Part shown: piece by piece, positions 26,695-41,778 of the stretch | Layout: each line of letters opens with the position of its first letter | How positions within the stretch are numbered: the first letter of the stretch is position 1 | From: Natrinema mahii | GTDB taxonomy: Archaea; Halobacteriota; Halobacteria; Halobacteriales; Natrialbaceae | Assembly: GCA_000690595.2 (NCBI GenBank) | Contig: JHUT02000012.1 | Span: 22,660 to 86,040 of the forward strand | Reading direction: 5' to 3' | DNA length: 63,381 bases | Made by a program: the position numbers and the translations under genes | The notes under the pieces: model-generated | Seen by the model: the letters and a program-made list of their open reading frames with translations, nothing else | Databases searched by the model: none | Told to the model about the DNA's origin: nothing

Positions 26695-26780
26695 CTATAG
26701 TAGCCGCTGAAAGTCATTGCACACCTGATCGCACGAAAGCGTTGCGATCAGTGTGTAAATCGATTCAACGGCTACTATAG
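26695..26780. mobile_element. Palindromic MITE, copy 1
   Basis: An 86-bp element with ends ctatagtagccg and cggctactatag and an inner inverted repeat (tgatcgc/gcgatca). It folds into one long hairpin. A second copy differing at about 7 positions lies at 40917-41002. It has no coding capacity, so it would have to be moved by a transposase elsewhere. No clear target duplication was found. Confidence 0.8.
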
Positions 26781-35482: not shown

Positions 35483-36964
35483 ATGAGCGACGAGAGTCAA
35501 GAACTCGGCATCACCGAGTCGAAATCGCACAAGCCCGGCGAGTGGTACGCCGAGGTCGTCCAGAAGGCCGATCTGGCGGACTACGCCCCGATGGGCGGGT
35601 TCATCGTCACCAAACCCCGCGGCTACGCCCTCTGGGAGGCGATTCAGGACTCGCTCGACGGCTGGTTCAAAGACACCGGCGTCGACAACGTCTACTTCCC
35701 GATGTTCATCCCCGAGAGCTTCTTAGAGCGGGAGAAAGACATCGTCGAAGGGTTCGACCCCGAGGTTGCGTGGGTGACTCAGGGCGGGCACGACGAACTC
35801 GAGGAACGCCTCGCAGTGCGTCCGACGAGCGAATCGATCATCGCGCCGTTTATGGCCGACTGGACCCGCAGCCACCGCGACCTCCCGATGCGGCTCAACC
35901 AGTGGTGTTCGGTCGTCCGGTGGGAGGCAACGGAGACGAAGCCGTTCTTCCGCACGAAGGAGTTCATGTGGCAGGAGGGCCACACAGCCCACGCCAGTAA
36001 CGAGGGCGCGTGGGAGGAGGTCTGGACCCGACTGAGCCAGTACGAGCGCGTCTACGAGGACGTCCTCGCGATCCCGGTCCTGCGGGGGAAAAAGCCCGAA
36101 CACGACAAGTTCCCTGGCGCGGACACCACGACGACCGTCGAGGCGCTGATGCCCGACGGCAAGTCCGTCCAGGGCGCGACCAGCCACAACCTCGGCCAGA
36201 GCTTCGCCGAGGCGTTCGACATCACCTTCGCCGACGAGAACGAGGACGAACAGACGGCCTACACCACCTCGTGGGGCCTCTCCTGGCGCGCGCTCGGGGC
36301 GCTCATCATGACCCACTCGGACGATCAGGGGCTCGTCCTCCCACCGACGGTCGCGCCCACGCAGGTCGTCATCGTCCCCATCTGGCAGGAAGACACCAAA
36401 GAGGAGGTCCTCGAGTACTCCGAGGAAATCGCCGAGGACCTCGAGGACGCTGGCGTCCGCGTCGAACTCGACGACCGCGACGGGCGCAATCCCGGCTTCA
36501 AGTTCAACGAGCACGAGCTCAACGGGGTTCCCCTTCGACTCGAGATCGGTCCCCACGAGGTCGACGACGAGGAGGTCACGCTGGTCCACCGGCCGGACAA
36601 CGCCGAATCCGTCGAGGATCGCGACGAGATCGTCGACGCCGTCGACGAGCATCTGGACGAAATCTTCGACAAGCTCTACGAGGCGGCCGAGGAGAACCTC
36701 GAGGACAACGTCCGCGAAGCCCACAGTCCGGAGGAGATCCTCGGGACGATCGGCAAACACGGCGGCTACGTGAAGACGCCGTGGTGTGGCGACGAGGCCT
36801 GCGAGGAGGTCATCAAGGAGAAGATCGCCGCCGAGATCGTCATGCAGCCCCTGGCCGACGAGGGCGGTTCGACGGCCGGCGAGGTCCCCGAACCCGAGCA
36901 CGACGAATGCGGGGTCTGTGGCGATCCCGCCGACGAAATCGCGTACTTCGCGAAGTCGTACTGA
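35483..36964 (+). CDS. proS: Proline--tRNA ligase, archaeal/eukaryal type
   Basis: A 493-residue class II synthetase. Motif 1 region is FIVTKPRGYALWEAIQDSLD, motif 2 region LNQWCSVVRWEATETKPFFRTKEFMWQEGHTAHA, and motif 3 lies in SWGLSWRALGALIMTHSDDQGLVLPP. The anticodon-binding domain is about 290-400. The C-terminal zinc domain has CGDEAC and CGVCGDPADE and ends in the conserved Tyr. The gene is intact, but its last 265 bp or so recur at 38380-38666, and GC content falls abruptly right after its stop codon. Confidence 0.96.
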   Translation: MSDESQELGITESKSHKPGEWYAEVVQKADLADYAPMGGFIVTKPRGYALWEAIQDSLDGWFKDTGVDNVYFPMFIPESFLEREKDIVEGFDPEVAWVTQGGHDELEERLAVRPTSESIIAPFMADWTRSHRDLPMRLNQWCSVVRWEATETKPFFRTKEFMWQEGHTAHASNEGAWEEVWTRLSQYERVYEDVLAIPVLRGKKPEHDKFPGADTTTTVEALMPDGKSVQGATSHNLGQSFAEAFDITFADENEDEQTAYTTSWGLSWRALGALIMTHSDDQGLVLPPTVAPTQVVIVPIWQEDTKEEVLEYSEEIAEDLEDAGVRVELDDRDGRNPGFKFNEHELNGVPLRLEIGPHEVDDEEVTLVHRPDNAESVEDRDEIVDAVDEHLDEIFDKLYEAAEENLEDNVREAHSPEEILGTIGKHGGYVKTPWCGDEACEEVIKEKIAAEIVMQPLADEGGSTAGEVPEPEHDECGVCGDPADEIAYFAKSY

Positions 36965-37156
36965 ATATCCTGTTCCAGCTATCAGAACCGTTTATCATAT
37001 TCACCCACCGGAGTTCCTCCCCCATTATACACATATCTAATTATAATAAATTTTAATAAAAACCTACATAGGAAATTAAAAGGCCTACTCCGATGGTTGT
37101 TGCGTGTCTACAGGAAAATAGTAAAACTAATATGTATTGGTACCAGAAGTACAGAT

Positions 37157-38059
37157 ATGCGTAGGAGAAACATACTCCAAAGCATCGGAGCATCGAGTGC
37201 TGGTTTGACGGTTCTGGGAGCTACAGGTGTACAGGCTGCCACGTCAGAAAACGAAACTTCTTCAAAGAAGTTGAAGGGTGAAGTCCGAACGGACGTATTA
37301 GAGGATATAAAGAGCAATGTGAATGTTACAAAGCTCATTGACGAAGTAGCCGATAAGGGATGGTCTCCTAATTGGGATGATGCTAGTATTAACTGAACAC
37401 AAATAGAGAAGAAAAGAAAAAGTGGCAGATTCGACTCAGCGTTTGTTGAATTTGAAAAGAAAGAGAATAACAGTGATGAGATGTTCCTCCTATGGATGGG
37501 TAACAGGACTCTCGAAATAAGGGAATTCGGACCGATTATTCATCATTTTGAAAAAGCCAAAGACGTTTCTGCTCAGAGTACTGCTGAAATTTATAATAGA
37601 TCGACAGCATATTCTGTCAGTAACAATGAAGTCTCTATGGATTCAGGTGACTTTCATCCAGATACTAGCCCAGAACTAGGCATCCATACAGCATCTTCTG
37701 ATTACTGTGAAATTGATATCTGTCTGGTTCCCGAATCAGACTTTAGCCTATCATGTTTAGCCCGATTAATTGTTGATGCTGGGTTCGCTGGGTTAGCTTG
37801 CTTAGGTTCGTTAGTTACATGGCCCGCAGTTATAGGATGTCTCGGAGCTATTGGGATGACCGGCGACCAAGCTGCTCAATGTATAACTGGAGGGCATGGA
37901 TGTGACGAAGTAAAAACAGTCGAGGTAGAAAAAGAATGGTTACGGGAAGAAGCAAACCAACCAGAAGATAATCCTTGCGAAGCTCACGGTTCACACAATG
38001 ACAAAACGTATCCAATGACAAAAGAATACTTCGAAGAAGAAGTACCAACAAAAGACTAG
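37157..38059 (+). pseudogene. Halocin C8-like exported cysteine-rich protein, interrupted by one in-frame TGA
   Basis: A single frame of 300 codons is broken only by TGA at 37394-37396; 37397-37480 is fully open and the frame then continues to 38059. The N terminus MRRRNILQSIGASSAGLTVLGATGVQAA is a twin-arginine-type signal ending in an AxA site. The middle (residues about 80-190) is hydrophilic. Then comes a Cys-rich hydrophobic core, with CEIDICLVP, SCLARLIVDAGF, ACLGSLVTWP, GCLGAIGM, QCITGGHGC, resembling the mature halocin C8 layout (signal, immunity-like part, peptide). A polar tail of about 50 residues follows. GC is low and codon use foreign. Either a nonsense-inactivated archaeocin gene, or two pieces. 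The halocin assignment is from remembered family pattern. Confidence 0.55.
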
Positions 38060-38076
38060 CATATTATCACATTTTT

Positions 38077-38343
38077 ATGACTTTGATTAAATCTATAGTG
38101 TATGCAATTATTACACTATCTCTGTTGTTTGTAACATTTCATACTTACAACAGCGAATACGACCGAACCGTAGTTGTCACTTTCGCCGCCGGTACCGGGC
38201 TAGGGATCTTATTATCAATTGATGAATTATTGAATTCTGAAGACATCGCAGAATCCGTGTTGTTCGTCGGTATGATCGTTCTGCTACTTGTGGCAGTAAT
38301 CGCGGGAACTGTCGCGGCACGGCGTCGTCGCGATAGTGCGTAG
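38077..38343 (+). CDS. Small membrane protein beside the halocin-like gene
   Basis: An 88-residue protein with three hydrophobic segments (about residues 5-21, 31-46 and 58-79) and a basic C terminus RRRRDS. It begins 17 bp after the halocin-like frame and shares its low GC, so it is probably co-transcribed. Small membrane partners next to bacteriocin genes are often immunity or export factors, which is an inference here. No family recognised. Confidence 0.6.
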   Translation: MTLIKSIVYAIITLSLLFVTFHTYNSEYDRTVVVTFAAGTGLGILLSIDELLNSEDIAESVLFVGMIVLLLVAVIAGTVAARRRRDSA

Positions 38344-38379
38344 ATACTACATTTCTCAGAAGAGGATTCCTCTATATTA

Positions 38380-38666
38380 CAAAAGAACTGTGCGATACGG
38401 CCGAGGACAACGTCCGCGAAGCTCACAGTCCCGAAGAGATCCTCGGGACGATCGGCAAACACGGCGGCTACGTGAAGACGCCGTGGTGTGGCGACGAGGC
38501 CTGCGAGGAGGTCATCAAGGAGAAGATCGCCGCCGAGATCGTCATGCAGCCCCTGGCCGACGAGGGCGGTTCGACTGCCGGCGAGGTCCCCGAACCCGAG
38601 CACGACGAATGCGGGGTCTGTGGCGATCCAGCCGACGAAATCGCGTACTTTGCGAAGTCGTACTGA
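38380..38666 (+). pseudogene. Partial copy of the proS 3' end
   Basis: Encodes NVREAHSPEEILGTIGKHGG onwards to the final AKSY of prolyl-tRNA synthetase, with no start. From about 38407 to the stop it differs from the intact gene at about six bases in roughly 260. Upstream of that the match weakens (KELCDTAED against KLYEAAEEN, with a 12-nt gap) and then ends. Just past the stop both copies share a diverged ctgtt-ccagct stretch. The pattern suggests a homologous fragment from a related proS rather than a fresh duplication. Confidence 0.85.
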
Positions 38667-39030: not shown

Positions 39031-40281
39031 ATGATAGATAGAGATAATTTAGATAGTATAGACAATGAGGAAAATACTGGCGCGGATATGAATGGTCGGC
39101 GAACGTTCCTGACTGGTCTGGCGAGCACGGCCTCTCTGGCTACTGTGGGATCGGTCGCCGCAGAGGAGGACGATAGAGAATACACCGCACTCGGTGCCGC
39201 CGAACCAGGAAACAAAGAGGGAGTGCCCGTCGAGGCCAAAGGAACACTCGAAGGCGAAATTCAGCGGTACAACGACGATGTGTTCGTTCACGAGCGGACC
39301 TTCCGGAGTGAGGACCTCGCCGAACATTTTGGCGATCCCGTGTTCGAGGAGGAACCGGTTTATATTGCCGAGGAGTGGCTCTCCGAAGAGATCGTTCAAA
39401 ACGATGGTCTGACGTACACGACAGAAACGACGAAAGTCATCGGCACTAGCACCGAACACAATCGGGCCGAAGCGAAGATCAAAACACAGAGGAATACCAA
39501 CCATCCGATGTTCGGTGGCGGCCTGGCTCCGCAGTATCACACTGCCATCGACGATATCCCGCTGTACAACTACTCTTCTAAGAGCAGGGCGCGGCGAGAT
39601 CCGAAGGAGCGAACATCACCAACGAATTTGGCCTTCAAGGACGGCGACGCTGCCAAAGTTGGCAAATTCATGGAAGACGCCTGTGGCTGGACGTCTGGTG
39701 TGGATGATATCGCAGATCTTGTCGGCGATATTCCCGGAATCGGAGGCTCCAACGACAATCCCTACGCCCAATCGAGATATCTCAACTACGATGGGGATGT
39801 CGTCGAAACTGATAGACACGTTATGAACCGCGCCGACTGGCGGATTTTCTCCCAGGTGCATATCCGTCTGTACGACGTGAGTTCCTACAACAACTCGTTC
39901 GACGTCGTTGGGCAGGTTCACCGGGATCCTGAGGATCACAACAAAGTCCGTGGCGAGATTCCGATCGACGAGATCGACTGGAGATACAACAAATCCCGAA
40001 GTGAGGTCCGAGATTGCTGGGAGAACAACGACAACGCCAGCGATGATGGTGAAGCCGGGTCATCATTGTATCAGGCAGGAAGAGGTGGTGTCGACACGCA
40101 CGACGGGAAAATAGCTGCGATTGTCAACGACGGTTTCGAGATCCCGTGCACAGGCTTGTTCTGTGGATTCAGTACCGAAGGAAAATCGGACGCTGAAAAC
40201 GAGATCCGGAATCAAAAACACCACTCCCACGATCACAGTTCCTCGGTGGCACGGCCCTGCGCCTGCATGCTGGGCTTCTAA
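39031..40281 (+). CDS. Exported protein with twin-arginine-type signal, unknown function
   Basis: 416 residues from the ATG at 39031; a second ATG at 39088 gives MNGRRTFLTGLASTASLATVGSVAAEEDD, a twin-arginine-like signal with AxA cleavage, and may be the real start. The mature part is acidic and hydrophilic without recognised domains, contains a possible amphipathic glycine-rich stretch (VDDIADLVGDIPGIGGSNDNP), and ends in a His- and Cys-rich tail (PCTGLFCGF, HHSHDH, CACMLGF). GC is intermediate. A membrane protein gene follows, repeating the layout of the halocin-like pair. A toxin or other secreted effector is a guess only. Confidence 0.6.
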   Translation: MIDRDNLDSIDNEENTGADMNGRRTFLTGLASTASLATVGSVAAEEDDREYTALGAAEPGNKEGVPVEAKGTLEGEIQRYNDDVFVHERTFRSEDLAEHFGDPVFEEEPVYIAEEWLSEEIVQNDGLTYTTETTKVIGTSTEHNRAEAKIKTQRNTNHPMFGGGLAPQYHTAIDDIPLYNYSSKSRARRDPKERTSPTNLAFKDGDAAKVGKFMEDACGWTSGVDDIADLVGDIPGIGGSNDNPYAQSRYLNYDGDVVETDRHVMNRADWRIFSQVHIRLYDVSSYNNSFDVVGQVHRDPEDHNKVRGEIPIDEIDWRYNKSRSEVRDCWENNDNASDDGEAGSSLYQAGRGGVDTHDGKIAAIVNDGFEIPCTGLFCGFSTEGKSDAENEIRNQKHHSHDHSSSVARPCACMLGF

Positions 40282-40398: not shown

Positions 40399-40932
40399 AT
40401 GGGTATGGATGCGTCATCGGCACTATTTTTGGATGAACAAACGGTCCTCGAGATAGCTGGCATCGTCGGGGCGCTCGTAGCGGGCCTCGGCTACTATTTC
40501 CGATCGCGATTGACCGAGTCCAGACGAACGGTTCTCGCTGGCTGTCTCCTGGGGGGCACCCTGTTTCTTTGTATGTGGATCATACGACAGTTGCTTCTCG
40601 ATCCCGGTTTGAACGATATGAGGGGCGAGTTCGCCGGTTCGGTCGATGTGCTGATATTTTCTGCAGCTCTTGTCGTCTTTTGTATAATAATGGCCGGAAT
40701 GACACTACCGGCCCTGTGGTTGTTCAGTCGTGGGTTGTTGGTCAGTCCAACACTCGGGCTCTTCGCCGTCACGTACAACGTCTTCTGGGCGATGTTCACT
40801 GTCAGCCACGAGAGTAACAGTATTATCATTCACTTCGGCCTTGTCTTCCCCATCATTCTCGTCGGCACTCTGTTGCTCGCGGGGCTCGAGTTCGGAGTAC
40901 TTCGGATCACAGGGCACTATAGTAGCCGCTGA
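40399..40932 (+). CDS. Multi-pass membrane protein, partner of the exported protein
   Basis: A 177-residue protein with five hydrophobic helices (about 17-34, 46-64, 82-104, 108-134 and 145-168). A second Met at 40405 is an alternative start. The last residues, HYSSR, and the TGA stop are supplied by the MITE that begins at 40917, so the natural C terminus was replaced when the MITE inserted. It probably belongs with the gene at 39031, by analogy to the preceding pair; immunity or transport is possible, and no family was recognised. Confidence 0.6.
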   Translation: MGMDASSALFLDEQTVLEIAGIVGALVAGLGYYFRSRLTESRRTVLAGCLLGGTLFLCMWIIRQLLLDPGLNDMRGEFAGSVDVLIFSAALVVFCIIMAGMTLPALWLFSRGLLVSPTLGLFAVTYNVFWAMFTVSHESNSIIIHFGLVFPIILVGTLLLAGLEFGVLRITGHYSSR

Positions 40933-41002
40933 GAGTCATTTCACACCTGATCGCATGACAGCGTTGCGATTAGTGTGTAAATCGTTTCAGCGGCTACTAT
41001 AG
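40917..41002. mobile_element. Palindromic MITE, copy 2
   Basis: Same 86-bp element as at 26695-26780 (ends ctatagtagccg / cggctactatag, about 7 differences). It overlaps the last 16 bp of the membrane protein gene and provides its stop codon. Confidence 0.8.
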
Positions 41003-41036: not shown

Positions 41037-41778
41037 GGCACTGTCTAGTTCTGTACCTCCTCGATCGGCGTCTTTCCATCGAGAGCTTGATGCGGTCTCT
41101 GATGGTTGTAGTAATGCATAAACTGTTCAAGCCATTCGCGGACGCTCGACCGACTGCCCACCCATGAATTATGGAAGCGGTCGATACGCATTTTGAGGGT
41201 GTGAAACCACTTTTCGATGAGGTTTCGGTCGGTATAGTTGACCTGATCGCTCAAACTTAATCGAGCAAGGGCAGTCCGGTAGCCGAATTGATCAACGAAA
41301 AACTCAGCATCCGAGAGATCGTGTTTCTCCGCGAGTCGATGGAGAAACGCAGCCGCCGGACCGGTGCCATGCCGCCCAAATAACGCAACATCGAGAATCA
41401 ACTTTATCTCGATGTCTATTGCAGCGTACAACCAAGACCATTCGCCGTTAATCTTGACAGCGGTTTCGTCAACGGCGACCCGCTTCGGGTGCGCCTCAGG
41501 CGGGTCGCGTCCACTGTTAGCTAGCCGATGAGCCCAATTCCAAACCGCCCCATGAGAGCGTTGAACACCTAATTCCGCTAAAATTGTTGTTGTCTCCCGA
41601 AGTGAACAACCGGTCTGATGGAGGCGGACGGCGAACGCCCTAACGGGCGTCGCCGTCCGCTCATTCTCCCAAGATTCTTCAAAATGCGGTTCATAGCTCT
41701 TGCTGAGCAGGTCTGCGAGCCTAACCAATTCACTCAACGACCTGCTCACTTCTCAAATTGACTCAACTAGACAGTGCC
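41037..41778 (-). mobile_element. Complete IS6-type insertion sequence with target duplication
   Basis: A 742-bp element with exact 14-bp terminal inverted repeats, ggcactgtctagtt at 41037-41050 and its complement at 41765-41778. It is bordered on both sides by the same 8 bp, gttgggca (41029-41036 and 41779-41786). One transposase fills the inside. The perfect repeats and duplication point to a recent insertion. Confidence 0.92.
41045..41749 (-). CDS. IS6 family transposase
   Basis: A 234-residue DDE transposase of the haloarchaeal IS6 branch. An N-terminal helix-turn-helix (LRETTTILAELGVQRSHGAVWNWAHR) precedes the catalytic core: Asp in KRVAVDETAVKING, Asp in EFFVDQFGYRTAL and Glu in NLIEKWFHTLKMR. 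The C terminus YNHQRPHQALDGKTPIEEV is typical. The frame is intact, so the element may be active. The stop codon lies inside the left terminal repeat region. Confidence 0.93.
   Translation of the reverse strand: MSRSLSELVRLADLLSKSYEPHFEESWENERTATPVRAFAVRLHQTGCSLRETTTILAELGVQRSHGAVWNWAHRLANSGRDPPEAHPKRVAVDETAVKINGEWSWLYAAIDIEIKLILDVALFGRHGTGPAAAFLHRLAEKHDLSDAEFFVDQFGYRTALARLSLSDQVNYTDRNLIEKWFHTLKMRIDRFHNSWVGSRSSVREWLEQFMHYYNHQRPHQALDGKTPIEEVQN

Follow-up and report, generated by a model that had tools for sequence, protein, structure and literature searches.

A nonsense-broken gene for a predicted Tat-exported, halocin C8-related precursor and a small membrane protein gene in a low-GC insert at proS of Natrinema mahii

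The stretch of DNA analysed here (the window) comprises 63,381 nucleotides of Natrinema mahii and contains an intact proS gene, encoding prolyl-tRNA synthetase (coordinates 35483–36964, forward strand), whose last 265 bp form the left arm of a duplication. The right arm (38402–38666, forward strand) is a displaced proS 3′ end that matches 36700–36964 at 259 of 265 positions, and the sequence downstream of it is colinear with a related genome (G068). Between the arms lies an insert (36965–38401) with a GC content of 35–42% compared with 66% for the window, and within it are two genes on the forward strand: a nonsense-broken gene for a predicted Tat-exported, halocin C8-related cysteine-rich precursor (37157–38059) and, 17 bp downstream, an intact gene for an 88-residue protein with three predicted transmembrane (TM) segments, which is a presumptive immunity or partner gene (38077–38343).

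The precursor frame extends from an ATG (37157–37159) to a TAG (38057–38059), a total of 301 codons, and is interrupted by an in-frame TGA at codon 80 (37394–37396). The initial annotation described it as open for 300 codons except for this TGA, and re-reading the frame confirms exactly one internal stop; at 42% GC a stretch of 300 codons would be expected to contain some 20 stops, and the probability of one or fewer is ~2e-8. The twin-arginine-type signal, polar middle and cysteine-rich hydrophobic core noted in that annotation are also all present. The signal region (codons 1–28, 37157–37240; MRRRNILQSIGAS...VQAAT) has the motif MRRRNILQSIG, with the RR pair invariant in all 20 aligned relatives, such that Tat export is predicted for the family. 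It is followed by a HalI-like N-terminal domain (37253–37657) with a predicted strand, a helix-loop-helix (codons 41–65) and an antiparallel sheet reaching to about codon 165, assigned by hhalign and hmmsearch comparisons with signal-less TIGR04449 precursors and by an AlphaFold model mostly at pLDDT 80–96 up to codon 130; the TGA is positioned 3′ of the helix-loop-helix, within the first long strand of the sheet. Further downstream are a cysteine-rich hydrophobic core, the putative mature peptide (37706–37905), for which four short helices are predicted at low confidence, and a C-terminal tail (WL...PC...PT; 37906–38056) specific to the subfamily of the window precursor. There is no in-frame ATG, GTG or TTG between the TGA and 37481, and because that codon falls within a conserved strand, re-initiation to give a sensible product is unlikely.

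Comparison with intact homologues had been proposed in the initial annotation, and searching 125 genomes from the taxonomic family of the strain identified unbroken full-length homologues with 21–33% identity in G034 (33%), G039, G038, G031, G033 and G046/G047 (loci L004–L009). All have the RR signal and are in register across the TGA column, where five of six aligned relatives have arginine and one has threonine; the alternative that the halves are separate genes in homologues was not borne out, and the single unbroken frame in each indicates that the two halves are one gene. Nineteen columns are invariant in the six relatives, and the window precursor retains 17 of them, five of five before the TGA and 12 of 14 after it. 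As judged from the alignment, this conservation is stronger evidence for a real gene than the open frame, and we regard 37157–38059 as a real gene broken by a nonsense codon; the unbroken homologues together with conservation on both sides of the stop suggest that breakage was recent and by that one codon, if the base is correct.

The family has a patchy distribution, being present in 10 of the 125 genomes at a loose cut-off, and a second draw of 392 genomes yielded no homologue closer than 33% identity. A search of plasmids gave a single distant match, in Haloarcula (23.5% identity, E 9e-4), and no relatives of the C-terminal part were found in the viral or genome contigs scanned. Neither half of the precursor matched a family in Pfam, NCBIfam or PHROGs scans, and the alignment of the window family (A1) is too diverged to serve for pattern scanning. 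Matches in G086 and G091 (E 0.004–0.01) were taken as chance, as there is no Tat or cysteine-rich protein at those sites.

Few archaeocins have been characterized at the level of genes, and of these halocin C8 has received the most study. Its precursor, ProC8, is a 283-residue Tat-exported protein that gives rise to HalI and a 76-residue peptide (PMC11509114). Neither the window protein nor any of six homologues matched TIGR04449 in an NCBIfam scan with a cut-off of E<=10; the same model matches 24 of the 125 genomes, including two genes of the N. mahii genome, and the test for absence of the halocin C8 cysteine-rich domain therefore has power. The A1 profile, in turn, matched the N-terminal halves of ORFs that have TIGR04449 at their C-termini. 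We therefore compared profiles of the window family (W, 10 sequences), bridging relatives (O, 10) and TIGR04449 proteins (H, 23), treating the N-part and Cys-part separately and removing the Tat signal so that it could not be the cause of the N-half match. With hhalign, the N-part scores are 34.7 for W–H and 53.0 for H–O (shuffled maxima 11.1 and 11.2), comparisons that are free of circularity, and 86.3 for W–O (shuffled maximum 16.7), which is partly circular because O was gathered with the W profile. The Cys-part W–O score, to which the same circularity applies, is 30.3 against a shuffled maximum of 12.2, and those for W–H (12.5) and H–O (11.3) lie within the shuffled ranges. An HMM of the combined W and O N-parts recovered 20 of the 23 H proteins by hmmsearch and none of 329 decoys other than the window's own ORF, and the aligned segment spans the RELA-repeat helix-loop-helix of the halocin C8 precursor.

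The link to halocin C8 drawn in the initial annotation thus stands for the N-part, whose homology with the HalI region of TIGR04449 precursors places a HalI-type domain upstream of the putative peptide, but not for the core: the halocin C8 spacing attributed to it finds no counterpart in profile similarity, with no TIGR04449 hit and a core profile–profile value of 0.3% in hhalign, which for this part is the outcome named in that annotation as refuting the link. Homology in the N-part combined with a core lacking similarity to halocin C8 indicates, at the level of sequence profiles, a family that is sister to the halocin C8 precursors and combines a HalI-like N-part with a different cysteine-rich helical core, rather than halocin C8 itself.

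Structure models were compared by the order of their elements. The AlphaFold model of the full window protein, translated across the TGA (mean pLDDT 73), has E33–38, H41–52, H55–65, at least six strands, the four short low-confidence helices and an alpha/beta tail. That of the precursor at L016:1501–2349 (reverse strand), a TIGR04449, halocin C8-type protein of the congener G051 with the same 283-residue length as ProC8, has a mean pLDDT of 62 and contains E47–51, H54–65, H68–79, five strands and four helices. The predicted order is identical in the two: strand, helix, helix, five or more strands and about four helices. Foldseek gave no significant match against the PDB or viral models, and VIA-align returned weak cystatin-like rows for both, each below the trust level (4ccv for the window model, Z 6.3, rmsd 5.0, 100 aligned; 6hpv for the halocin C8 model, Z 5.4, rmsd 3.5, 81 aligned).

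Small ORFs resembling the downstream membrane gene (83–121 residues, with two to four TM segments counted by a simple hydropathy window) are found no more than 400 bp from the precursor at 16 of 23 family loci compared with 6 of 91 background genes, some of which may be spurious ORFs, and at 6 of 23 TIGR04449 loci. The Fisher p value of 9e-10 for the association (16/23 vs 6/91) is optimistic, since the 23 loci are phylogenetically non-independent and were gathered with a profile spanning the Tat signal. The placement of the membrane ORF varies across the family loci (downstream, upstream or convergent), and it is missing at seven of the 23, including the closest relative (L073). The membrane partners form several barely related groups, mostly too diverged to show common descent; a search with the 88-residue protein returned background hydrophobic matches only, and it has no family in Pfam, NCBIfam or PHROGs. 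This association is the pattern that toxins with matched immunity proteins would be expected to produce, and 38077–38343 is a candidate protection gene. Immunity to halocin C8 is reported to act in cis, and a separate immunity gene is therefore not required.

One full proS gene is present in all 29 genomes of the genus, and the N. mahii genome is the only one of them with an extra proS 3′ end; the gap between proS and gltB is variable across the genus. In G068 the counterpart of the displaced fragment is the true proS end, colinear (92.9%) into a gene for a 416-residue Tat protein, and the insert was therefore taken as 36965–38401 only. An import of the proS fragment and the downstream Tat gene as a single unit was considered and dropped as unneeded, given this colinearity. 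The simplest inference from the sequence arrangement is that DNA carrying a proS 3′ end together with the two-gene module recombined into proS, restoring the gene and displacing its old end. The initial annotation did not include the small membrane gene downstream, the insert bracketed by proS sequence or the pattern seen across the family.

The proS–gltB gap of the window also contains a second secreted-plus-membrane pair, namely the 416-residue Tat-signal protein (39031–40281) and a 177-residue protein with four TM segments (40399–40932); the Tat protein is present in G068 at 92%, and DNA of G069 and G066 matches the membrane gene alone. A MITE-like element of ~86 bp is present in two copies (26696–26780 and 40917–41002) that have the same inverted ends (CTATAGTAGCCG), and is also found near proS in several congeners. 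An insertion sequence at 41037–41778 encodes a DDE transposase of the IS240/IS6 type and has perfect inverted ends of 14 bp.

Related precursors are broken elsewhere, by a frame change in G048, a TAA in G245 and frame changes in G087, and the small membrane ORF is intact beside the broken precursors of G048 and G245. Within the N. mahii genome itself, a TIGR04449 gene (L039, on contig G000:C2) contains an 80-bp MITE-like insert (874–953; ends GCTATAGTAGCCG...CGGCTACTATAGC) in its Tat signal region, and the counterparts in G075 and G064 are uninterrupted. The same genome has an apparently intact halocin C8-domain gene (L015, G000:C16:13550–13759) that is nearly identical to one in G063.

The analysis shows a single stop, an N-part homologous to that of halocin C8 precursors, a conserved cysteine core, an association with a membrane gene and the proS duplication. 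From these we consider it likely that the locus is a silenced archaeocin-type module that has lost its precursor and retained the presumptive immunity gene. In intact relatives the precursor would be exported folded through the Tat pathway, with the HalI-like helix-loop-helix and sheet holding the disulfide-bonded helical core inactive until extracellular proteolysis frees it. Among secreted precursors of haloarchaea, HFX_0892 has been shown to be activated by a protease (PMC12893001). The released core would presumably attack the membranes of rival haloarchaea, and the co-encoded small membrane protein would shield the producer. In N. mahii the module may have come on the 1.4-kb low-GC insert at the proS 3′ end, probably by a single crossover with DNA bearing 265 bp of proS, and the TGA at codon 80 would have stopped the precursor after its arrival. 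With its presumptive protection gene still whole, the strain would no longer be a producer but may stay protected.

An unlikely but serious alternative is that the cysteine-rich protein is a Tat-exported surface protein without antimicrobial activity (e.g. a signal, adhesin or stress protein) that has just an export and folding N-domain in common with halocin C8, its membrane neighbour being an anchor or processing partner. The restriction of halocin C8 homology to the N-part is consistent with this, as is the lack of a family name in Pfam, NCBIfam or PHROGs. Against it stand several traits characteristic of antagonism genes: a patchy occurrence (10 of 125 genomes), a low GC content, a core that has diverged strongly, repeated inactivation and a small membrane protein gene beside the precursor.

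The TGA itself permits further readings. It is improbable that it reflects a sequencing or assembly error and that living cells of the strain have an unbroken, active gene; the difference is a single one of the substitution type in an otherwise well-conserved frame, and the genome is a draft of 24 contigs, but stops and frameshifts occur in related precursors elsewhere, and N. mahii itself has a TIGR04449 gene interrupted by a MITE. We consider it very improbable that the nonsense codon was selected as an immunity-only allele giving a functional 79-residue product, a Tat-exported helix-loop-helix peptide that binds and neutralises halocins. The TGA does fall past the helix-loop-helix that aligns with the RELA-repeat segment, and an N-terminal motif of HalI is reportedly essential (Mei et al. 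2008), but an essential motif is not thereby sufficient, the sheet on which the fragment packs is lost, there is one case only, and in G245 the TAA precedes the helices, such that no general stop position is conserved. That the TGA is recoded or read through to make the full protein is scarcely credible despite the 220 codons open beyond it, since SepSecS (TIGR03531) is absent from the N. mahii genome (the M. jannaschii control being positive), which makes selenocysteine very unlikely, the column holds neither a stop nor Cys/Sec in any of the six aligned relatives, and the adjacent proS ends in TGA, as expected of an ordinary stop. Among the three explanations of the TGA offered in the initial annotation, recent loss is favoured, both by the lack of selenocysteine machinery and by the independent stop and frameshift losses in relatives.

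More tentatively, and with somewhat less than even confidence, the silenced module may belong to a large, modular haloarchaeal archaeocin superfamily with a common Tat signal and HalI-like N-domain, interchangeable cysteine-rich cores and a small 3-TM immunity partner, in which precursors are repeatedly lost and the membrane gene is kept to give protected non-producers. If the N-domain is such a shared immunity or chaperone module with different cores, it would provide a sequence handle on many new archaeal antimicrobials and a candidate class of membrane immunity proteins, and strains that have lost the precursor and kept the partner would be a natural series in which to follow cheating and resistance within communities of brines.

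The closest known system is ProC8 (HalI plus HalC8; NCBIfam TIGR04449, halocin_C8_dom), with which the window precursor shares a Tat signal, a homologous N-terminal helix-loop-helix/beta domain with the same order of elements, a C-terminal cysteine-rich hydrophobic helical segment and an organization as one gene of about 280–320 residues. It differs in its cysteine pattern and core sequence, in an additional C-terminal tail past the core, and in being TGA-broken in the window copy, and its family usually has a separate small membrane gene alongside (16 of 23 loci versus the 6 of 23 TIGR04449 loci checked). The alignment with HalI, the N-terminal part of ProC8, covers the helix-loop-helix region, but the window gene would be translated only into the signal and the helix-loop-helix segment. 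Makarova et al. 2019 reportedly expanded the halocin C8 family and described archaeal loci for antimicrobial peptides and polymorphic toxins that encode secreted, variable proteins resembling toxins, and in that respect the window family may be likened to them.
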